A stretch of 30,021 nucleotides of DNA from a virus: IMG/VR virus record IMGVR_UViG_3300037502_001122, positions 1 through 30,021 of that record. One strand, given 5' to 3'. A program made the position numbers and the translations under genes. Of the stretch, positions 20,698-28,903 are shown in pieces; within the stretch, counting starts at the first letter, position 1, and each line of letters begins with the position of its first letter. A model generated the notes under the pieces. It had not been told where the DNA came from, searched no databases, and was given only the letters and a program-made list of their open reading frames with translations.

Positions 20698-20767
20698 ACC
20701 CTTCCAGTGGGCGCAATGCCCACCCTCTGCCAGCCCCGTAGGTTACTCCCGCCTGCGGGGCGTTTTT
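20698..20767 (+). ncRNA. Putative ~70-nt small RNA
   Basis: The segment between promoter P1 and the terminator at 20733-20767 holds no gene with a ribosome binding site. The predicted transcript has a first hairpin (GTGGGC at 20707-20712 with GCCCAC at 20718-20723, loop GCAAT), a short single-stranded stretch, then the terminator hairpin and T-run. That is the layout of a small regulatory RNA. It might instead be only a terminated leader. The 3' half is shared with the terminator duplicated at 22307. Confidence 0.5.
20733..20767 (+). terminator. Intrinsic terminator, copy 1
   Basis: GCCCCGTAGG (20733-20742) pairs with CCTGCGGGGC (20752-20761), ten pairs including one G-U, around a 9-nt loop, followed by GTTTTTG. 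It closes the small transcript from P1 and any read-through of the late block, just upstream of promoter P2. Confidence 0.9.
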
Positions 20768-20793
20768 GTGGGCGAAAAAAGTTTGCAAGGGGA

Positions 20794-20822
20794 TTGACTT
20801 GTGCACCGGAATTAGGTATAGT
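20794..20822 (+). promoter_or_regulatory. Sigma70-like promoter P2
   Basis: The -35 TTGACT (20794-20799), a 17-base spacer and the -10 TATAGT (20817-20822) give a strong match to sigma70 consensus. It drives the unit at 20871-22246. The leader hairpin AGCGGC/GCCGCT (20834-20850) lies between start and ribosome binding site. Confidence 0.85.
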
Positions 20823-20833
20823 ATGGACATGCA

Positions 20834-20850
20834 AGCGGCGTGGGGCCGCT
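20834..20850 (+). other. Leader hairpin, copy 1
   Basis: AGCGGC (20834-20839) pairs with GCCGCT (20845-20850) around a 5-nt loop near the 5' end of the P2 transcript. It is conserved in copy 2 at 22410-22426. A nine-codon frame (MDMQAAWGR) reads across it, but its first ATG lies right at the -10 element, so translation is doubtful. The hairpin probably protects the mRNA 5' end. Confidence 0.65.
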
Positions 20851-20870
20851 AAGCAAACGGGAGACACGAG

Positions 20871-21068
20871 ATGAAAATTCAGATTACCTACACACACAAC
20901 AGTGGCCGCAGCATCATCAACACGCGCAATGTCATTGATTGTGGCTCGGGCTACGTTCAGTTGAGCCGCACATACTTCACTGATTGCGGGCGCGCTTGCG
21001 GTAACGTAGGCAACTACTCGATGAGCATCGAAGATTACTGCGCAGAGACCGGTTTCTACATAGCCTAA
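20871..21068 (+). CDS. Small hypothetical early protein
   Basis: The 65-residue protein has four cysteines (in VIDCGSGY, FTDCGRACG and DYCAE) and a mixed alpha/beta look (MKIQITYTHNSGRS...YVQLSRTYF). It is the first gene after promoter P2 and has a GGGAGA site in the shared leader. No family is recognised. Its position next to a strong promoter suggests early expression, as is usual for small host-takeover proteins. Confidence 0.65.
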   Translation: MKIQITYTHNSGRSIINTRNVIDCGSGYVQLSRTYFTDCGRACGNVGNYSMSIEDYCAETGFYIA

Positions 21069-22301: not shown

Positions 22302-22306
22302 TGCCA

Positions 22307-22341
22307 GCCCCGTAGGTTACTCCCGCCTGCGGGGCGTTTTT
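22307..22341 (+). terminator. Intrinsic terminator, copy 2
   Basis: GCCCCGTAGG (22307-22316) pairs with CCTGCGGGGC (22326-22335), followed by GTTTTTG. It ends the transcript from P2 (20871-22246) just before promoter P3. Confidence 0.9.
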
Positions 22342-22369
22342 GTGGGCGAAAAAAAGTTTTGCAAGGGGG

Positions 22370-22398
22370 TTGACATGCGCACCGGAATTAGGTATAGT
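22370..22398 (+). promoter_or_regulatory. Sigma70-like promoter P3
   Basis: A perfect -35 TTGACA (22370-22375), a 17-base spacer and -10 TATAGT (22393-22398). This is the best promoter match in the window. It drives the 22447 gene and probably the leader of the first HNH gene. Confidence 0.88.
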
Positions 22399-22409
22399 AT
22401 GGACATGCA

Positions 22410-22426
22410 AGCGGCGTGGGGCCGCT
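22410..22426 (+). other. Leader hairpin, copy 2
   Basis: AGCGGC (22410-22415) pairs with GCCGCT (22421-22426) upstream of the GGGAGA ribosome binding site of the 22447 gene. It is identical in sequence to the hairpin of copy 1. Confidence 0.65.
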
Positions 22427-22446
22427 AAGCAAACGGGAGAGATAAG

Positions 22447-22644
22447 ATGAGCACAGCGGAACTTACTACCGGCGACTTCATTCAGGTTAACTGGACTGAC
22501 CGCACATTCTTTGGGCAGGTGCTTGATGTGCAAGATACCTTTAGCGGTGAAGATGGTGCCCGCCGTGTGCAGTTGGAACTTAACCCCGAAACACACGCTA
22601 CGGGTTGGTTTGTCATCAACCCCAACGAATTTGAGCTTGTATAA
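22447..22644 (+). CDS. Small hypothetical early protein
   Basis: The 65-residue beta-rich protein (LTTGDFIQVNWTDRTFFGQVLDVQDT... and WFVINPNEFELV) has the look of a small SH3-like or Tudor-like barrel, where a GD-x-x-x-V-x-W strand opens the fold. It is the first gene after promoter P3 and uses the GGGAGA site in the duplicated leader. No family is firmly recognised, and function is unknown. Confidence 0.65.
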   Translation: MSTAELTTGDFIQVNWTDRTFFGQVLDVQDTFSGEDGARRVQLELNPETHATGWFVINPNEFELV

Positions 22645-22752: not shown

Positions 22753-22860
22753 GCAACAACCGAATGCCATTAAAGGAACCCTATAAGATGCTTACTACGT
22801 CCGCGATCCACGCCTTTATGGCAGGTTGTTGCAAACCGGGTCGCGGGCGTTCTTTTTTTT
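22753..22860 (+). promoter_or_regulatory. HNH leader 1: mutually exclusive helices with terminator
   Basis: Helix A pairs 22753-22776 with 22813-22832 (GCAACAACC/GGTTGTTGC, GCCAT/ATGGC, AAAGG/CCTTT; 19 pairs). The terminator helix pairs 22798-22809 with 22838-22849 (12 pairs, two G-U) followed by TTCTTTTTTTT. The terminator's 5' arm lies in the loop of helix A and its 3' arm outside. The five bases between A and the 3' arm cannot span a 19-pair helix, so the two should exclude each other. This is the logic of an attenuator. Confidence 0.65.
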
Positions 22861-22892
22861 GCAACTTAAAAGGAAAAAGAAATGCCCGGTAA
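22788..22892 (+). CDS. Leader ORF upstream of first HNH gene (34 codons)
   Basis: The frame MLTTSAIHAFMAGCCKPG... begins 9 bases after an AAAGGA site and runs across both helices and the terminator T-run. It ends at a TAA that overlaps the HNH start by 11 bases. The ribosome binding site is itself paired in helix A. Translation would melt helix A and the terminator, so the peptide may be a by-product of regulation. Coding status is unproven; a chance frame is possible. Confidence 0.4.
   Translation: MLTTSAIHAFMAGCCKPGRGRSFFCNLKGKRNAR
22799..22860 (+). terminator. Intrinsic terminator before first HNH gene
   Basis: CGTCCGCGATCC pairs with CGGGTCGCGGGCG-side bases at 22838-22849 and is followed by a run of eight T after TTC. 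The long loop contains a small GGTT/AACC hairpin. It is a strong conditional terminator within the leader. Confidence 0.7.
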
Positions 22893-23424
22893 ACAAAAGC
22901 GATGCAAAGATGGATATGGCGTTAAAAGTTTAGAGATGCTACGTATTGCTAAAGATCGAGGGATGCACCTTAATGCCGATGGTAAGATTGTGTTGCCTAA
23001 CGGTAAGGTTGCAAACTCTAAGCCACAATGGGGAAGAAGTCGTATTAACCTCGGAATCAATGGAGTAGCTTGCACTATTCAAACTGCACGCGCTGTGTGT
23101 TTCTTGGCGTGGGGTGAACCTCCCACAAATAATAGTGTTGCTGATCATATAGATGGTGACACTTTAAACGACCACCCATCTAACCTTAGATGGGCGACTT
23201 ATGGAGAAAATATGCTGAATAATAAATTTACGCGTGTAAAAACACGAGAACAAAAATGTGTAGAGTACTGCGCGGGCATCAACCCCGAGGCCGTGCCGGA
23301 GATGTTGGAGGCGTTGCGGGCGATAATCTCAGTGCCAGCGGAGCAATTCGCAAACGCTAGACAATTCCAAGCGTGGTGCGAACTGAAATCCCGCGCCGCG
23401 CTCGCCAAGGCGGAGGGTAAGTGA
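22882..23424 (+). CDS. HNH endonuclease fused to C-terminus of a resident phage protein
   Basis: A 180-residue chimera. Residues 1 to about 125 form an HNH homing-type endonuclease with VADHIDGDTLNDHPSNLRWATYGENMLNN (H89, D91, N96, N101, N110), preceded by a basic DNA-binding part. From about residue 126 (CVEYCAGINPEAVPEMLEALRAI...AALAKAEGK) the protein matches the C-terminal half of a common phage protein of unknown function, and base composition changes from AT-rich to GC-rich near 23257. The fusion keeps frame. It probably nicks DNA lacking the insertion and spreads by recombination; that is inferred from the family. Confidence 0.82.
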   Translation: MPGKQKRCKDGYGVKSLEMLRIAKDRGMHLNADGKIVLPNGKVANSKPQWGRSRINLGINGVACTIQTARAVCFLAWGEPPTNNSVADHIDGDTLNDHPSNLRWATYGENMLNNKFTRVKTREQKCVEYCAGINPEAVPEMLEALRAIISVPAEQFANARQFQAWCELKSRAALAKAEGK

Positions 23425-23657
23425 TGAACGTTGAAAAACTTTACAAGATATTTCCAAACGCATTAGTTTCTATGGATATCAAGCACGGGTTACGAACAAA
23501 CCCACGAATGCACGATCCAAATGATTTTGTGAGCATTAATGTTGCGTGGTCTATGACTGGTCAAGGACCATCTACAATTGAGGCACTTTTAGACCTTGCA
23601 GACCAAATCAAGCATTGCATAGAACGAGCTGAAAAGTTTGTAAAGGATGGTAAGTGA
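23424..23657 (+). CDS. Small hypothetical protein, AT-rich
   Basis: The 77-residue protein (MNVEKLYKIFPNALVSMDIKHGL...) has a C-terminal helix (ALLDLADQIKHCIERAEKFVK). It starts on the overlapping stop of the HNH fusion (TGATG) and its stop overlaps the next start. Codon use is AT-rich like the HNH part and unlike the following genes, suggesting a shared origin with the incoming DNA. No family is recognised. Confidence 0.65.
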   Translation: MNVEKLYKIFPNALVSMDIKHGLRTNPRMHDPNDFVSINVAWSMTGQGPSTIEALLDLADQIKHCIERAEKFVKDGK

Positions 23658-23911
23658 TGGACAACTTCCACGTATACGAGCATCTAGGCACCCGCGTATG
23701 GCAGCACGTATCCGCGCCGGTATGGGTGCGGGAATACACGGGGCAGGATATCTACACTCCGACCCGTTACGGCGCGTACAAGTCAATCGAGCGCGTACCA
23801 GAGGGCCACAAGCCGTGGACCGTCAACAACGTGCGCGTAGCACCGATGGCGACCAACCTGCAAGCGGCACTGAATGCGGCTATCGAAGCTGCGGAGGAGT
23901 TTGAATGTTAG
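23657..23911 (+). CDS. Small hypothetical protein
   Basis: The 84-residue protein starts MDNFHVYEHLGTRVWQHVSAPVWVREYTG and ends in a helix (LQAALNAAIEAAEEFEC). An aromatic-rich beta half and a helical end suggest a small alpha/beta fold. Start and stop overlap the neighbouring genes. No family is recognised. Base composition returns to the GC-rich norm of the phage here. Confidence 0.65.
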   Translation: MDNFHVYEHLGTRVWQHVSAPVWVREYTGQDIYTPTRYGAYKSIERVPEGHKPWTVNNVRVAPMATNLQAALNAAIEAAEEFEC

Positions 23912-24123
23912 ACCCGACCACCGGCATAACCGCCGCCGATATCGAGCAGGCCAAGCGCGAATTTGAACGTGCCCGCTTTGAGAAGATGCAGCGAATCACG
24001 GATGAGTTTCGAGAAAAGTACATCATCAAGGATGAACATTGCATGTTGGAAAAACGGGCATACGACCTGCTGCAACGGGCAAAGGCGCGGGTGCGCCGGA
24101 ACAGCGAAGGGATGGGAGGATGA
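23905..24123 (+). CDS. Small helical hypothetical protein
   Basis: The 72-residue protein is almost entirely charged helix (ADIEQAKREFERARFEKMQRITDEFREKYI...RAYDLLQRAKARVRRN) and likely forms a coiled coil. It overlaps the previous gene by 7 bases and the next by 4. No catalytic motif or family is visible. Confidence 0.6.
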   Translation: MLDPTTGITAADIEQAKREFERARFEKMQRITDEFREKYIIKDEHCMLEKRAYDLLQRAKARVRRNSEGMGG

Positions 24124-24422
24124 CATTCGACATCATCGCGGGCATAGCATTAGGCGCAATGAGTACCATCCTGCTACTCGTGCTGTTTGACAAGCCCGCA
24201 ACGCGGACGGAGGATGACGAACTACGCGACCGGCTGGCGAACGAGGCTGTTGACTACTGCGAGCACAAGCGGCTAAATCGCATGGAGTCCTTCCAGCGGG
24301 CCAAGTGGGATCGCTATGTGGCGACCGCTCAACAAGTCGAAGAACTGGCAAAACCGGATGCACCGGAGCCAATCATGAGCCAACTGCGCCGAATGATTGC
24401 GCACGTGAGGAGTGGGAAATGA
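24120..24422 (+). CDS. Small membrane-anchored protein
   Basis: The 100-residue protein begins with a hydrophobic segment (about residues 4-23, DIIAGIALGAMSTILLLVLF), followed by charged helix. The ATG at 24120 is preceded by GGGAGG and overlaps the previous stop; the frame is open further upstream to 24039 but has no signal there. The shape, one membrane segment plus a helical tail, is shared with the 8706 protein without sequence similarity. Function is unknown. Confidence 0.65.
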   Translation: MTFDIIAGIALGAMSTILLLVLFDKPATRTEDDELRDRLANEAVDYCEHKRLNRMESFQRAKWDRYVATAQQVEELAKPDAPEPIMSQLRRMIAHVRSGK

Positions 24423-24694
24423 AAACCAAAACCATGCGGCACAAGTCATCAAGGATGGCCGGGCGCGACCGTGGCGGGCTGGAGAAGTCATTAGCGGTGG
24501 CTGCTAAGCTGGAAGTCATCAAGGACGTTATGGATCGGTACGATGAGGTTCTCAGTATCGCGGGCGGGTTTGCTGGCAGGCCGGTAACACCACGCTTGAC
24601 AGTTGCCGATCAGGAAGATTTGATTATGGCCCGCGCCGTTCTCCAAGAGCTTTGGGACGATGTGAATTCACGGGCTGCTAGGATAGCGACATGA
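24419..24694 (+). CDS. Small hypothetical protein
   Basis: The 91-residue protein has a basic N-terminus (MKTKTMRHKSSRMAGRDRGGLEK) and two predicted helices (KSLAVAAKLEVIKDVMDRYDEVLSI and ADQEDLIMARAVLQELWDDVNSR). The ATG at 24419 overlaps the previous stop with a GGAGTGGG site. An upstream extension to 24305 reads another gene in the wrong frame and is rejected. No family is recognised. Confidence 0.65.
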   Translation: MKTKTMRHKSSRMAGRDRGGLEKSLAVAAKLEVIKDVMDRYDEVLSIAGGFAGRPVTPRLTVADQEDLIMARAVLQELWDDVNSRAARIAT

Positions 24695-24879
24695 AGCGGC
24701 GGACCTGCCACCCGATCTATTGCCACCCGTTCACCGATGGCGCGAACGTTACTGCCGTGGAGTATCACGCGCTAATTGACGCGGCCTTGAAATCAGGCAT
24801 CGCGGGGATCTACTGGGCAAACAAACGGATTGCAGCCGGGCGGGAAGCGGCAATTCGGAACGTCTACCACCCAAACTAG
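24691..24879 (+). CDS. Small hypothetical protein
   Basis: The 62-residue protein starts MKRRTCHPIYCHPFTDGANVTAVEYHALIDAALKSG, with a Cys/His cluster (C6, H7, C11, H12) that could bind a metal. It overlaps the previous stop (ATGA). No family is recognised and the Cys/His pattern does not match a standard zinc finger. Confidence 0.6.
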   Translation: MKRRTCHPIYCHPFTDGANVTAVEYHALIDAALKSGIAGIYWANKRIAAGREAAIRNVYHPN

Positions 24880-24887
24880 GAGGTGCT

Positions 24888-25094
24888 ATGGATATCGCAG
24901 ATGTACTCATGGGCGAGGATGTGGACAAGGTTGTATTCACGCGGGGCCGGATACCGTGTCGGGTGACGGGCGGCACAATAGGCGCGTATGAGGTTGGGCT
25001 GTATCAGGATGGGCTTCTCGTTGGGCACGGGAAGAACGTGGACTTCGACCGCGCCTTTGATGCAGCCGTTGAGGATATAGGGGATAGGCTATGA
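24888..25094 (+). CDS. Small hypothetical protein
   Basis: The 68-residue protein (MDIADVLMGEDVDKVVFTRGRIPCRVTGG... ending FDAAVEDIGDRL) looks like a small beta sheet with a C-terminal helix. It has a near-perfect AGGAGGT ribosome binding site, the best in this run, so it may be highly expressed or restart translation for the recombination genes. Its stop overlaps the nuclease start. No family is recognised. Confidence 0.65.
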   Translation: MDIADVLMGEDVDKVVFTRGRIPCRVTGGTIGAYEVGLYQDGLLVGHGKNVDFDRAFDAAVEDIGDRL

Positions 25095-25909
25095 TCAACA
25101 AGCCCAACATGCACCAATCGCAGGTTTGGCTTGCGCTTAACTGCGGCATGGCGTACTACCACCGATACGTTAGGATGATTGCCCGCCCGCCGTCTGTGCG
25201 GATGGTCGAGGGGACAGCGGTTCACAAGGCCGGCGAACTCAACCTATTGCACAAGATTGAAGAGGGACAACTACTGCCAGAATCGGACGTGCTGGACATT
25301 GCCCGCGATGCCCTAAATGAATCATGGCAGGCGGAAGGGGTGCAGCTATCGGAGGATGAAAAGACCGTAGGCGCGGCAAAGGTACAAGGGCAGGCCATAG
25401 ACGCATCCGTGCGGATGGCGCAGGTGGAACACCGCAACCTAGCCCCAGCTATCAATCCTTCACACGTAGAGCGGCGATTCAGGATCGAGCATCCTGATTT
25501 GCCGTTCAATATTCAGGGCACCATTGACACGCAGGAAGTCAACGGCAACATCAGGGACCGCAAGACTTCGAAGAAAACCCCGCCCGCATCCAAGGCGCAT
25601 ACTTCCAGCCAACTGAGCTTGTACGCGCTGGCAGTGAAAGCCCTTGATGGAAAGGCACCGGAAACGCTGTATCTCGATACCATCGTAGACTTGAAGAGCG
25701 GGCCGCACATTGTGACTTACGAGACCACACGAGACGTTCAGGACTTCGCAATGGAGCTTGACCGGATGACGCGGGTATACGAGGCGATAGGTAAGGGCGT
25801 GTTTCTGCCGTGCAATTCTGACAATTGGATGTGCCAGCAGAAGTATTGCTCCTACTGGCAGGATGAGTGTGAGTTTGGCCGCCGTGGCCGCAACAGAATG
25901 GACAACTGA
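25091..25909 (+). CDS. Cas4/RecB-like PD-(D/E)XK exonuclease with putative Fe-S cluster
   Basis: A 272-residue nuclease. Visible core residues are GTAVH (H45), a glutamate in HVERRF (E127), GTIDT (D146), RDRKT (D156, K158) and the QLSLY motif (Q174, Y178), the order of the RecB/Cas4 superfamily. A cysteine near the N-terminus (C18) and three near the C-terminus (C248, C253, C260; also C241) match the pattern that holds an iron-sulphur cluster in Cas4 and AddB. It probably resects double-stranded ends. The adjacent gene may be its annealing partner. There is no CRISPR array or other Cas gene nearby. Confidence 0.85.
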   Translation: MINKPNMHQSQVWLALNCGMAYYHRYVRMIARPPSVRMVEGTAVHKAGELNLLHKIEEGQLLPESDVLDIARDALNESWQAEGVQLSEDEKTVGAAKVQGQAIDASVRMAQVEHRNLAPAINPSHVERRFRIEHPDLPFNIQGTIDTQEVNGNIRDRKTSKKTPPASKAHTSSQLSLYALAVKALDGKAPETLYLDTIVDLKSGPHIVTYETTRDVQDFAMELDRMTRVYEAIGKGVFLPCNSDNWMCQQKYCSYWQDECEFGRRGRNRMDN

Positions 25910-25919
25910 AAAGGGAATC

Positions 25920-26786
25920 ATGATGCAAGACACCACTCCAAACGTTGAAGTAATGCCGATACCGCACGGCAATAACCTGGCGACGATTGACCGCGCCGAA
26001 ATTGACATGCAGATCGCCACCGCGAAGCAATACCCGCGCAGCGTATCGGCCTGTCTGGACAACGCACGCGCCTTGATTAAGATGGACAAGGAGTCCGCAC
26101 AACAGGCGTTCTACCTGCTCGACTTCTACGACAAGAGTAAGCCCATCATCGGGCCGTCTATCCGCATGGCTGAAATCCTTGCGGGGTGCTGGAAGAATAT
26201 CCGATATGGAAGCCGCCCGTTGGAGATTACCGACAGCACGGTGGTTGCGCAGGGCTACTGCTATGACTTGGAAAACAATGTGGCGTTCACAGCCACGAAG
26301 ACCAAAAGCATCCTTGACAAGCGCGGGCAGCGGTTCAAGCCGGACCTTGTGGTGAAAATCATGCTTGCCACGCAGGCTATTGCGGAACGTGACGCCATTC
26401 TGAAAGTCATTCCCCGCGCCTTTGCGAACAACCTTGTGGAAGAGGCAATGAACGTGGCAGAGGGTGGCGAGAAGTCTATGCAGGAACGGCAGGACGATGC
26501 TGTGAAATTCTACACCGGCAAGGGCATCACCGCGGAAAGGCTGTGCGCGTGGCTGGGTGTGGACGATGTGAGGGATATCAGCCTCAAGCATTTGCAAGTA
26601 CTCCGCGCCTTGGCGAACAGCATCAAGGACGGCGTGACCACGATTGAGGAAGCGTTCAAGGACGATAGCCGGGTGGTGGTGGAGAAGGCTACCATTAACC
26701 TTGATGAAGTGGCACCAACAAAGGAACAACCCACAAATGCCGGGCACAGTGGCGAGGATGCGCCGAAGCCGGAGGGTAAGAAGTGA
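25920..26786 (+). CDS. Putative phage recombination / annealing protein
   Basis: The 288-residue protein has a conserved-looking core, KQYPRSVSACLDNARALIKMDKESAQQAFYLLDFYDKS..., GPSIRMAEILAGCWKNIRYG, TKTKSILDKRGQRF, LATQAIAERDAILKVIPRAF. It then has a charged disordered tail ending KPEGKK. This type is common beside phage exonucleases, and that pairing suggests an annealing or recombination mediator working on the single strands they produce. I cannot assign it to RecT, Erf or Sak by motif. ATG at 25920 is used (25923 is possible); the frame is open upstream without signal. Confidence 0.6.
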   Translation: MMQDTTPNVEVMPIPHGNNLATIDRAEIDMQIATAKQYPRSVSACLDNARALIKMDKESAQQAFYLLDFYDKSKPIIGPSIRMAEILAGCWKNIRYGSRPLEITDSTVVAQGYCYDLENNVAFTATKTKSILDKRGQRFKPDLVVKIMLATQAIAERDAILKVIPRAFANNLVEEAMNVAEGGEKSMQERQDDAVKFYTGKGITAERLCAWLGVDDVRDISLKHLQVLRALANSIKDGVTTIEEAFKDDSRVVVEKATINLDEVAPTKEQPTNAGHSGEDAPKPEGKK

Positions 26787-27241
26787 TTGCGATCGACCCG
26801 GGATCACTTGGCTGTATAGTATTCGACACCCGCAGCGGCCTTGAGGTTGTCCGTATGCCCATGACCGAGCGTGGCAAGAAGCGCGTGCTAGACGCTGACG
26901 GCCTGATAGAAATCATCATGGCGGCGCGTGGGAGTGGTAGCACGATTTGCGTTCTGGAAGATGTTGGCGTCCACATGGCGGGAAACAACGCGCAATCGTC
27001 GGCAACCTTCGCGTATACCTGCGGCATGACGTATGGCATCCTGCGGGCGTGCGGCGTTGGCGTGCGGCTTGTGCCTCCGAAAGTCTGGCAGGCGTGGCTA
27101 GGCGTCAAACCGGGTGGCGACAAACTGGAGCGGAAGCGGGCTATCAAGGCCAACGTGCAGGCCCGCTTTCCTGAAATCAAGGTGATTAACGACACGGCGG
27201 ATGCGCTGGGCATCTACGCGTACGGCATCGGGCAGTTATGA
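26783..27241 (+). CDS. RuvC-like Holliday-junction resolvase
   Basis: A 152-residue RNase H-fold nuclease. Four acidic positions in RuvC order are visible: D5 in IAIDPG, E59 in VLEDVG, and D137 and D140 in NDTADALGIYAYG. The LVPPKVWQAWLGV and K-rich helix before the last motif are typical of phage RuvC-like resolvases. It likely trims branched DNA before packaging and completes recombination started by the two upstream genes. It uses a GTG start within the previous stop, with a GGAGG site. Confidence 0.85.
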   Translation: MIAIDPGSLGCIVFDTRSGLEVVRMPMTERGKKRVLDADGLIEIIMAARGSGSTICVLEDVGVHMAGNNAQSSATFAYTCGMTYGILRACGVGVRLVPPKVWQAWLGVKPGGDKLERKRAIKANVQARFPEIKVINDTADALGIYAYGIGQL

Positions 27242-27441
27242 CCACCGACCGCGCCAGATACTACGAGATGACCCGGCTGATTCTGGTGCCGAAGCTGGAC
27301 GCGCTGACCGGCGCGGCCCGTGAATGGGTGGAGGAGCGGGCTGGCATCCGGGAGCATTGCGGCGGGGCATCGCGGGAGGTTGCGGAGGCGGAAGCCCTTG
27401 TTGACTTCGCGTATTTTCGGGCGGGCAAGGAACGAAAGTAG
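27238..27441 (+). CDS. Small hypothetical protein
   Basis: The 67-residue, charged helical protein (MTTDRARYYEMTRLILVPKLDAL... ending FAYFRAGKERK) overlaps the resolvase stop (ATGA). No family is recognised. Its stop is at the promoter of the following unit, so it closes the recombination operon. Confidence 0.6.
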   Translation: MTTDRARYYEMTRLILVPKLDALTGAAREWVEERAGIREHCGGASREVAEAEALVDFAYFRAGKERK

Positions 27442-27470
27442 TTGCCCGCACACTAGCAACGTGGTATATT
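27442..27470 (+). promoter_or_regulatory. Sigma70-like promoter P4
   Basis: TTGCCC (27442-27447; four of six), a 17-base spacer and TATATT (27465-27470; five of six) give a plausible promoter. Its start near 27477 coincides with the 5' edge of the structured leader. Confidence 0.65.
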
Positions 27471-27474
27471 AGGC

Positions 27475-27598
27475 GTGCCGCTGAACCCGGCACAAGACAG
27501 AAAGGTAAAATCAATGTCACTTATACCCCCGTCAAGAGGCTACTTGCGTCACCTTTCCGCAAGTGTGCCGGTTCAGCTTGGCGGGGGTTTTCTGTCTT
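27475..27598 (+). promoter_or_regulatory. HNH leader 2: interlocking helices with terminator
   Basis: Four helices can be drawn. Helix a is 27480-27493 with 27565-27577 (13 pairs, one bulge). Helix b is AAGACAGAAA 27494-27503 with 27589-27598. Helix c is 27525-27536 with 27577-27588 (12 pairs, one G-U). Helix d is ACTTGCG 27542-27548 with 27558-27564. The 3' arms d, a, c, b are contiguous with no unpaired base. Helix c is followed by TTTTCTGTCTTT, a terminator-like tail. Helix a encloses the 5' arm of c and abuts its 3' arm, so a and c should exclude each other. A hairpin at 27475-27493 competes with a. Confidence 0.6.
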
Positions 27599-27612
27599 TG
27601 GAGAACGCCTAA
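27514..27612 (+). CDS. Leader ORF upstream of second HNH gene (32 codons)
   Basis: The frame MSLIPPSRGYLRHLSASV... follows a GAAAGG site, crosses helices c and d and the T-rich tail, and stops in TAATG so that its last base is the first base of the HNH start. The layout repeats that of the first HNH leader (34 codons) with no sequence similarity. It may be a real peptide or a translated sensor whose ribosome position sets the RNA fold. Coding status is unproven. Confidence 0.45.
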   Translation: MSLIPPSRGYLRHLSASVPVQLGGGFLSLENA

Positions 27613-27974
27613 TGCAACCATTGTCGAAAAAGTTTAGGATGCGTATTTATGCAAGAGATAATTATCAGTGCCGATTGTGTGGACGGAAAATGGATATCGT
27701 AAAGGATTACGACAGCCTATCTGTTGACCATATTTTGCCAATTTCTCGTGGTGGAAGTGATGATTCAGACAATCTACAAACAGCCTGTAAGTCTTGCAAC
27801 TCTCGCAAAAACACAAAGACGATGGAAGAGTATTTTCAATACAAGCATAAACGGTACAATCAACAGTTTTTTGATTTGATTACAAAAGACTTTCAAAACT
27901 TCATTGATTCCGGCGGGAATCACTTTGATTATTCAGTTTCAATAAAACACCTACTCACAAAGGAGGGGTACTAA
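27612..27974 (+). CDS. HNH endonuclease
   Basis: A 120-residue free-standing HNH nuclease of the HNH_1/McrA type. It has a structural zinc site (C20 and C23 in CRLCG, C59 and C62 in ACKSCNSRK) and the catalytic segment SVDHILPISRGGSDDSDNLQTACKSCN (D39, H40, N54). The rest is a helical, AT-rich tail. Base composition is far more AT-rich than the flanking genes, which points to transfer. A GGAG site overlaps the end of the leader. It may be a homing endonuclease or serve in packaging; its place by the replication genes favours the former. Confidence 0.88.
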   Translation: MQPLSKKFRMRIYARDNYQCRLCGRKMDIVKDYDSLSVDHILPISRGGSDDSDNLQTACKSCNSRKNTKTMEEYFQYKHKRYNQQFFDLITKDFQNFIDSGGNHFDYSVSIKHLLTKEGY

Positions 27975-27976
27975 TA

Positions 27977-28903
27977 ATGGCAGGCTATTCAAAGCTAGAC
28001 TGTGGAATCATTGACTCCAGCCTTTGGGAAATGCCGCACGAGTATCTCCGTGTCTGGATTGCAATGTTGGCAAAAACAGACGCAAACGGATATGTGAGGG
28101 TGGCAGCCCCGGCAATGGCGCGGCTGTGCCACTTGACGCGGGAAGAGTTCGACCGCATCATAGACGTATACTGCGCTCCTGACCCAGAAAGCCGCACGGC
28201 AGACAACGAGGGCCGCCGTTTGGAAAAGGTAGAGGGCGGATGGTTGATTTTGAACTACTTAAAGTATCGCGAAGGATTGAAGCAACCAGACCTAAGTACA
28301 GACAGAGTAAGGAGATATAGGGGAAAGCAAAAAGAGTGTAACGGTTCTACCGTTTCAGAAACGGATGAAACGATTTGTAACGCCTATGCAGAAGCAGAAG
28401 CAAAGGCAGAAGCAAAGGCAGATCCAAAGGCAAAAGCAAGTAAGAAGAAGAACACCCCCCTACCCCCAAAAGGGGGAGTGTCTGGAAATCTGCATCCGTG
28501 TGGCTTGCCAATTGATGTGCTTTGGAAAGCGGCCTTTGAGGATTTTTGGGATATCTACCCAAAGAAGCGCGGCAAAGACCCAGCCAACAAATCATGGAAC
28601 AGGCTCAAGGGCGACGAGAAGCTATTCTGCAAAATTTACAATGCTGTTGTGGAGTGGAGCGAAACCGAAGATTGGCAGAAGAACGATGGCCAGTTCGTGC
28701 CAAACGCCAGCACGTTTTTGAATCAACGCCGGTGGGAGGATGAGATACCCCCGCCGAAACCTGTTGACCGCACAGACCCAAAATGGATGGCTGAGAACGA
28801 CGATTACACAGCCGTTGGAGGCACGATGGGTGCTACCAACGAACGTTATGATGCACTTGCGGCCATTTTCGGGTGGTATGACAAAGATCGGACCGATGAA
28901 TGA
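27977..28903 (+). CDS. Replication initiator-like protein (phage O/DnaT-like)
   Basis: A 308-residue two-domain protein. Residues about 1-110 (YSKLDCGIIDSSLWEMPHEYLRVWIAMLAKTDANGYVRV...) form a winged-helix replisome-organiser-like domain. A charged Ala/Lys/Glu repeat links it (about residues 137-158) to a C-terminal part (FEDFWDIYPKKRGKDPANKSWNRLKG... PNASTFLNQRRWEDE) common in phage helicase loaders and O-like proteins. It likely binds the phage origin and recruits the helicase encoded next. An AGGAGG site lies in the end of the HNH gene. Iteron-like DNA repeats lie in its linker. Confidence 0.75.
   Translation: MAGYSKLDCGIIDSSLWEMPHEYLRVWIAMLAKTDANGYVRVAAPAMARLCHLTREEFDRIIDVYCAPDPESRTADNEGRRLEKVEGGWLILNYLKYREGLKQPDLSTDRVRRYRGKQKECNGSTVSETDETICNAYAEAEAKAEAKADPKAKASKKKNTPLPPKGGVSGNLHPCGLPIDVLWKAAFEDFWDIYPKKRGKDPANKSWNRLKGDEKLFCKIYNAVVEWSETEDWQKNDGQFVPNASTFLNQRRWEDEIPPPKPVDRTDPKWMAENDDYTAVGGTMGATNERYDALAAIFGWYDKDRTDE
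28337..28476 (+). other. Candidate replication origin inside the initiator gene
   Basis: Within 46 bp there are five copies of an (A/T)AACG motif on both strands: TGTAACG at 28337 and 28376, GAAACG at 28358 and 28367, and an inverted CCGTTTC at 28350. They include the 15-bp palindrome CCGTTTCAGAAACGG (28350-28364) and the inverted pair AACGG/CCGTT (28340-28354). A purine-rich GCAGAA/GCAAAG repeat (28388-28450) and the hairpin CCCCCAAAAGGGGG (28463-28476) follow. Lambda carries its origin iterons at the same place, inside the O linker. Function here is inferred. Confidence 0.5.

Follow-up and report, generated by a model that had tools for sequence, protein, structure and literature searches.

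A predicted pseudoknotted leader RNA ahead of a phage replication operon, and its counterparts of unrelated sequence at other phage replication loci

Two HNH endonuclease genes in a 30,021-nucleotide (nt) stretch of viral DNA (IMG/VR virus record IMGVR_UViG_3300037502_001122, positions 1 to 30,021; this whole stretch is the window) each stand behind a leader in which a short open reading frame (ORF) runs across a hairpin with a U-rich tail. The window is that of a phage, with genes for terminase, portal, protease, capsid, tape measure and endolysin, and the early genes come after these. We refer to the two leaders as leader 1 (W1) and leader 2 (W2); numbers preceded by L denote other phage contigs or loci used for comparison. 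Judged by sequence, leader 2 is a member of a widespread family of putative RNA switches that have the same plan and unrelated sequences and lie ahead of phage DNA-replication genes. Our preferred reading, held with moderate confidence, is that leader 2 is a conserved pseudoknotted 5' leader RNA that acts as a transcription attenuator of the replication operon and carries a translation-coupled leader ORF. The original prediction had taken both leaders for attenuators of the HNH genes behind them; the comparisons point to these HNH genes as passengers.

Architecture and covariation of leader 2

Each leader has an ORF whose stop codon overlaps the next start, helices whose arms follow one another as A, T5', A', T3', and a tail rich in U; the two have this plan in common without sequence similarity, all as originally described (Table 1). 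Here A pairs with A', and T5' with T3' to form the helix T. The arrangement also proved to be beyond chance, as had been argued from its occurring twice: the minimum-free-energy z score is -5.0 for leader 2 (reached by 0 of 200 shuffles) and -2.8 for leader 1 (2 of 200), and by these folding statistics both leaders are genuine structured RNAs. Most of A in leader 2 doubles as part of a 5' hairpin, P1, which leader 1 lacks. The A region (27480-27493) and the A' region (27565-27577) form 13 base pairs (bp) with one bulged C, T is a helix of 12 bp with a 40-nt loop and the tail TTTCTGTCTTT, and the calculated energies are -9.8 kcal/mol for P1, -20.2 for T and -20.3 for A:A'. The predicted promoter of leader 2 is the sole promoter-like site in 27380-27640, and its -10 box ends 4 nt ahead of P1. 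A GC-rich hairpin and then a U tract lie between promoter and first gene, as in an intrinsic attenuator. When the upstream stretch was shuffled (n = 60), the best ungapped A:A' helix was reached by 5 shuffles for leader 2 and by 0 for leader 1; the significance of leader 2 rests mainly on covariation.

The replication protein encoded behind leader 2 has two near relatives in IMG/VR, at L001 and L002, whose N-terminal 120 residues are 85% and 82% identical to it. Immediately upstream, both loci repeat the layout of leader 2 and share little of its sequence. An unrelated, non-HNH protein of 169 or 82 residues is encoded there between the leader and the replication gene, which argues that leader 2 belongs to the replication operon and that the HNH gene is a passenger. 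This is where the proposed attenuator for HNH genes fails, because the orthologous leaders precede unrelated genes ahead of the same replication gene. The predicted promoters are TTGACA-18-TAAATT in L001 and TTGACA-17-TACAGT in L002, with -10 boxes ending 5 and 6 nt ahead of P1. In W2, L001 and L002, P1 has 5-6 bp and a 7-nt loop (CTGAACC, CTGGAAC and CTGCAAC, respectively), and 6-7 of the loop bases pair with GGTTCAG, GTTCCA and GTTGCA, with no gap to T3'.

In a composite alignment of these three leaders, 98.5% of the cells are paired and 10 of 22 pairs are changed on both sides, against a shuffle mean of 3.4; the double changes include 2 of the 6 A:A' pairs and 6 of the 10 T pairs. When the partners are slid by 1-3 columns, pairing falls to 36-46% (at most 45.5%). 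A second orthologous set (L128, L129, L135 and L150) is 96.4% paired, with double changes at 8 of 28 pairs (shuffle mean, 2.0), two of them in A:A', and all 17 T pairs are kept in every row. A further helix of the W2 fold, B (AAGACAGAAA/TTTCTGTCTT), was left out, as it is kept in neither L001 nor L002.

Recurrence of the plan at phage replication loci

Replication loci were gathered with the conserved part of the replication protein as query (55 and 80 viral loci), and 102 non-redundant loci (675 kb) were scanned for a 5' hairpin that pairs with the loop of a U-tailed hairpin. At a score of 36, the coding strand gave 20 matches, the opposite strand 4 and each shuffle 3.7 on average; some matches are near-identical copies. 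With the U-tail required and a score of at least 34, the match lay just before an ORF start in 18 of 22 cases on the coding strand, whereas none of the 11 matches on the opposite strand and none of the 21 from unrelated phage loci (1.02 Mb) did so. With the U-tail not required, 17 of 38 coding-strand matches in leader position have a U tract (at least 5 T in 8), compared with 0 of 82 in controls of similar size from opposite strands and unrelated phage loci. One of the 18 leader-position matches (L208) looks like a false positive and was not counted. The scans yield at least 13 distinct examples, unrelated in sequence and placed immediately ahead of early genes (W2, L001, L002, the L128 set, L129, L131, L149, L154, L156, L157, L202, L204 and L216), and inspection adds three looser ones (leader 1, L166 and L207), for a total of 16 elements. 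A DNA pattern for the P1 loop gave chance matches only in viral contigs, and those loci were reused as controls.

Several properties recur. Spacers across all elements are 47% A, against a contig mean of 27%, and -10 boxes end 4-8 nt ahead of P1 in W2, L001, L002, L149, L156, L128 and L202. A correlation between spacer length and T length, expected if the spacer must span T, is suggestive only (rho 0.55, p 0.05). In the window, both leaders and 13 related loci, Rfam found nothing at gathering score, with RybB and SpR10 far below threshold. Nucleotide and protein searches of cultured phages with both leaders, two replication-protein N-termini and the L149 replication protein returned no relatives of the leaders, and we found no description of this arrangement in the open-access literature.

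Two observations on individual loci may be recorded here. L149 (3182-3327) and L156 (2987-3100) have in common a 15-nt P1 hairpin (GAGTCGGGAAAACTC) and its A', with T helices that are almost completely different; A' lies in the apical loop of an inner stem, so that the contact would be a loop-loop kiss. In many relatives that have no pseudoknot leader (L147, L146, L141, L161 and L155), the start of the replication gene is directly preceded by short direct repeats such as TAACGCAAAC / CCGTAACG, possibly iterons.

Leader ORFs and the genes behind the leaders

In 7 of 15 elements, a frame that crosses T begins at an ATG in or beside the spacer, compared with 1.5 expected from shuffles. The stop of this leader ORF overlaps the next start in six of them (by 11 nt in W1 and L002, 1 nt in W2, and 4 nt in L129, L216 and L202), and the L204 ORF runs on. 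In L207, the sixteenth element, a 4-nt ATGA overlap is apparent on reading the sequence. The L128 ORF stops early, and that of L001 exists only from a TTG start. As far as these overlaps indicate, translation coupling is common and not universal among the elements. A lack of covariation and of a conserved leader ORF at related HNH loci was to count against the original prediction; at the related loci compared here, both covariation and a recurrent leader ORF were found. The leader peptide as a conserved item was rejected: the peptides have only GC-rich and Phe stretches in common, which T3' and the U tract account for, and such an ORF is missing from six elements.

The next gene starts about 5-65 nt beyond T. 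A replication initiator lies directly behind the leader in L131, L149 and L166, a small gene of unknown function in L128, L129, L156, L207, L216, L001 and L002, a methylase or helicase-methylase gene in L154 and L202, and an HNH gene in W1, W2 and L204; the next gene of L157 is not among the identified downstream genes. Small first-gene proteins of 59-67 residues are encoded at L182 3310-3504, L129 3118-3309, L216 3244-3423 and L207 3263-3466, with no Pfam or PHROG match where searched. The HNH gene of L204 (2305-2619) lies on an unrelated contig, and homing nucleases may favor the position directly behind a leader of this type.

Proposed mechanism and alternative explanations

By promoter prediction, the transcript would start at P1, with the A-rich spacer next, often with a start codon, and then T with its U tract. 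A', just 5' of T3', would pair with the P1 loop and form a loop-loop or H-type pseudoknot. T would be an intrinsic terminator that attenuates the operon. Because A' leaves the polymerase before T3', the P1:A' contact would be made first, and it may set whether and how fast T closes. A ribosome that started in the spacer and read through T would block the terminator and reinitiate at the next start codon; without such a ribosome, a leader RNA of about 110 nt would be released. The replication genes would thereby be rationed, and HNH genes lodged behind the leader would come under the same control. Control of a leader terminator by RNA pairing or by a translating ribosome is known from the pT181 countertranscript attenuator and the trp-type leader-peptide attenuators. 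The phage leaders differ from these in that the partner of A is the loop of the terminator and neither of its arms, and in that the peptides share no regulatory codons.

The helices A and T had originally been taken to be mutually exclusive, which is not established. It does not follow for W2, because helices arranged as A, T5', A', T3' make up an H-type pseudoknot, for which W2 offers about 31 and 28 nt as connecting loops; for W1 it could hold if the extended A helix forms, because only 8 nt then remain to cross the helix. What stands of the earlier interpretation is the structured leader, with its terminator-like hairpin, its competing or pseudoknotted upstream helix and its ORF ending on the next start, which is real, recurrent and covarying; its role as an HNH attenuator does not stand.

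Several points weigh against reading leader 2 as an attenuator with a coupled ORF. The sequence comparisons establish the conserved architecture, the covariation including that of the pseudoknot, the U tract, the place at a predicted transcription start and the coupling overlaps, and it is from these that we infer termination, readthrough and leader translation. The composite alignments were joined from hand-cut segments and hold only 3 and 4 distinct sequences, and U tract, promoter and spacing were judged by consensus only. A:A' need not be an antiterminator, because it is topologically compatible with T. L131, L149, L154, L156, L157 and L166 have no ATG leader ORF through T, and with L001 having only a TTG start, leader translation cannot be a universal trigger. 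Leader 1 has no relatives, no P1 and a best promoter match of only 7/12.

One alternative, which we consider unlikely, is feedback or immunity by RNA. The terminated leader (P1 plus T) would be a small, stable RNA; by pairing in trans with nascent A', its P1 loop would raise termination and so count genome copies or block superinfection in the manner of the P4 CI RNA, the C4 RNA of phage P1 and IsrK of Gifsy-1. The released leader would be an RNA of about 110 nt that presents a 7-nt loop on its 5' hairpin and ends in a terminator, A and A' pair as well between two molecules as within one, and the A:A' sequence is completely different between phages, as expected of a specificity determinant. 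Pairing in cis is, however, much faster than in trans, the window holds no second copy of the leader 2 A' as a target, the C4 antisense RNA (Rfam RF01695) has no match at gathering score in the window or the 13 loci, and these phages may not form lysogens. As precedents, RNA-guided premature termination keeps the replication genes silent in P4, and the terminated leader RNA of Gifsy-1 acts on its own readthrough mRNA (PMC4825925). The P4 and P1 systems resemble the present leaders in being phage operon leaders (of replication genes in P4) with internal complementary segments and, in P4, premature termination; here there is instead one A/A' pair, which forms a pseudoknot with a predicted terminator, and action in trans is conjecture. 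The IsrK leader also has a prophage promoter, a short terminated RNA alongside a readthrough mRNA, and, ahead of the next gene, a small ORF to which that gene is coupled. It differs in the action in trans of the short RNA on the readthrough mRNA and in that a pseudoknot is not mentioned in its description (PMC4825925).

The nearest functional analogue appears to be the Rep leader of the I-complex (ColIb-P9, IncB and IncK) and IncL/M plasmids, the detailed part order of which is partly general knowledge. In those leaders, a leader peptide is coupled to the replication gene, a pseudoknot is needed for translation of that gene, and an antisense RNA I acts (PMC8125031; PMC10724649). Like them, the phage leaders have a 5' stem-loop whose loop bases pair, as a pseudoknot, with sequence a short way ahead of the following gene (a pairing found in at least 13 families, with covariation in two orthologous sets), and they would likewise control a replication initiator. 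In W1, W2, L002, L129, L216 and L202 they also have a leader ORF that overlaps the next gene and may be coupled to it as the plasmid leader peptide is. In contrast, the A' stem of the phage leaders is a terminator-like hairpin with a U tail, several elements have no leader ORF, and there is no sequence relation. No antisense promoter against the 5' stem-loop was clearly above shuffles in any element in a consensus scan. The loops (CTGAACC, CTGGAAC, CTGCAAC, CGTAAGAA, CGGGAAA and others) do not carry the UUGGCG motif, and the downstream genes encode lambda-O-like or PHROG 9474 replication proteins or other early proteins, not plasmid Rep. The phage leaders would thus work like the plasmid leaders without being members of their group, because no antisense control is seen, the loop motif differs and a predicted terminator is added.

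A purely translational switch of the plasmid type is quite unlikely. T would then be no working terminator, and leader-ORF translation together with the pseudoknot would open the next ribosome-binding site. This explanation draws on the IncL/M plasmids, in which a 5' stem-loop, a leader peptide, a pseudoknot and a coupled replication gene come in the order seen here (PMC8125031). In L131, L128 and L154, T3' may cover the ribosome-binding site, because the start codon lies about 11 nt after T3'. Against it stand the consistent U tract (17 of 38, versus 0 of 82 in controls), the position of the ribosome-binding site outside T in W2, L001, L002 and leader 1, and the result of the antisense promoter scan.

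Pseudoknots adjoining terminators are common in riboswitches and ribosomal-protein leaders, and a ligand, or a phage or host protein, could bind the pseudoknot and control T; this is improbable, as the families share no conserved unpaired sequence and have no Rfam match. An attenuator dedicated to HNH nucleases is hardly credible: the genes behind W1, W2 and L204 would suit it, but they account for only 3 of the 16 elements, 12 precede other identified reading frames, and the leader 2 orthologues have no HNH gene there.

Repressors and protein antiterminators are usually seen as governing phage replication operons. If leader 2 is the attenuator that we favor, many uncultivated phages would have an additional level of control over their replication genes, in the form of a covarying, sequence-free RNA switch that converges with the copy-number RNAs of plasmids. 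Such a class would be missed by Rfam-style surveys, because homology searches cannot find a sequence-free element. It raises the testable question of whether the P1:A' contact or leader translation decides termination, and it would mean that homing nucleases can shelter behind an existing regulated leader. A wider proposal, possible though doubtful, is that a sequence-free phage leader class of conserved architecture rations replication genes in many unrelated phages and that the RNA released from the leader feeds back on new transcripts, either sensing genome copies or signaling immunity. Were the released RNA to act in this way, plasmid-type RNA control of replication would have been built on a terminator and overlooked for want of a conserved sequence.

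Leader 1 and other features of the window

Leader 1, which has no P1, probably follows the same plan in a looser form. Its A' has 18 matches with at most one mismatch on both strands of the window (A and A' included), compared with 9.6 expected. The HNH gene behind it looks chimeric, with an AT-rich HNH part to about 23255 and a GC-rich part after that, as if an HNH gene had been inserted ahead of, and then fused to, a resident phage gene. Residues 137-180 of its product (44 residues) have a weak match to PHROG 1273 (E 0.0065), and a protein search found no relatives of the protein.

Table 1. Positions of the two leaders, their parts and the genes behind them in the window
Feature	Position	Strand	Basis or remark
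Leader 1	22753-22882	+	sequence
A of leader 1, GCAACAACC	22753-22761	+	no P1 hairpin around A
Second A:A' block of leader 1	GCCAT 22766-22770 / ATGGC 22818-22822	+	5 bp; extends A:A' helix
AAAGG of leader 1	22772-22776	+	sequence
Leader ORF of leader 1, 34 codons	ATG 22788 to TAA 22892	+	11-nt overlap with HNH start at 22882
Terminator-like hairpin of leader 1	22797-22860	+	T5' 22797-22809, T3' 22838-22850 (13 bp, 28-nt loop), U tract 22851-22860; tail after T3' TCTTTTTTTT
A' of leader 1, GGTTGTTGC	22824-22832	+	9 bp with A
HNH gene behind leader 1	22882-23424	+	Pfam HNH_3, 1.9e-7; AT-rich HNH part, then GC-rich C-terminal part
Predicted sigma-70-type promoter of leader 2, TTGCCC-17-TATATT, TG ahead of -10	27442-27470	+	consensus match 9/12
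Leader 2	27475-27612	+	sequence
P1, 5' hairpin GTGCCG-CTGAACC-CGGCAC	27475-27493	+	also in L001 and L002; 2 pairs changed on both sides
A of leader 2 (P1 loop)	27481-27487	+	pairs with A'
AAAGG, ribosome-binding site of leader 2 ORF, in A-rich spacer	27501-27505	+	sequence
Leader ORF of leader 2, 32 codons	27514-27612	+	stop overlaps HNH start by 1 nt (TAATG)
T5' of leader 2, 5' arm of terminator-like hairpin	27525-27536	+	10/10 compared pairs kept in W2, L001 and L002, 6 changed on both sides
Small hairpin within T loop of leader 2, ACTTGCG...CGCAAGT	27542-27564	+	fold
A' of leader 2, GGTTCAG, directly 5' of T3'	27570-27576	+	complementary to P1 loop; 6/6 pairs kept in three orthologues, 2 changed on both sides
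T3' (27577-27588) and U-rich tail of leader 2	27577-27599	+	sequence
HNH endonuclease gene behind leader 2	27612-27974	+	Pfam HNH, 1.2e-15; other genes here in L001 and L002
Replication-initiation gene, constant partner of leader 2	27977-28903	+	PHROG 9474, 1.7e-24

Elsewhere in the window, a cassette is duplicated at 20728-20874 and 22302-22450, ahead of two early genes, with about 94% identity between the copies. It consists of a terminator (CCCCGTAGGT...GCCTGCGGGG), then a consensus promoter and a 5' hairpin, AGCGGC-GTGG-GGCCGCT.

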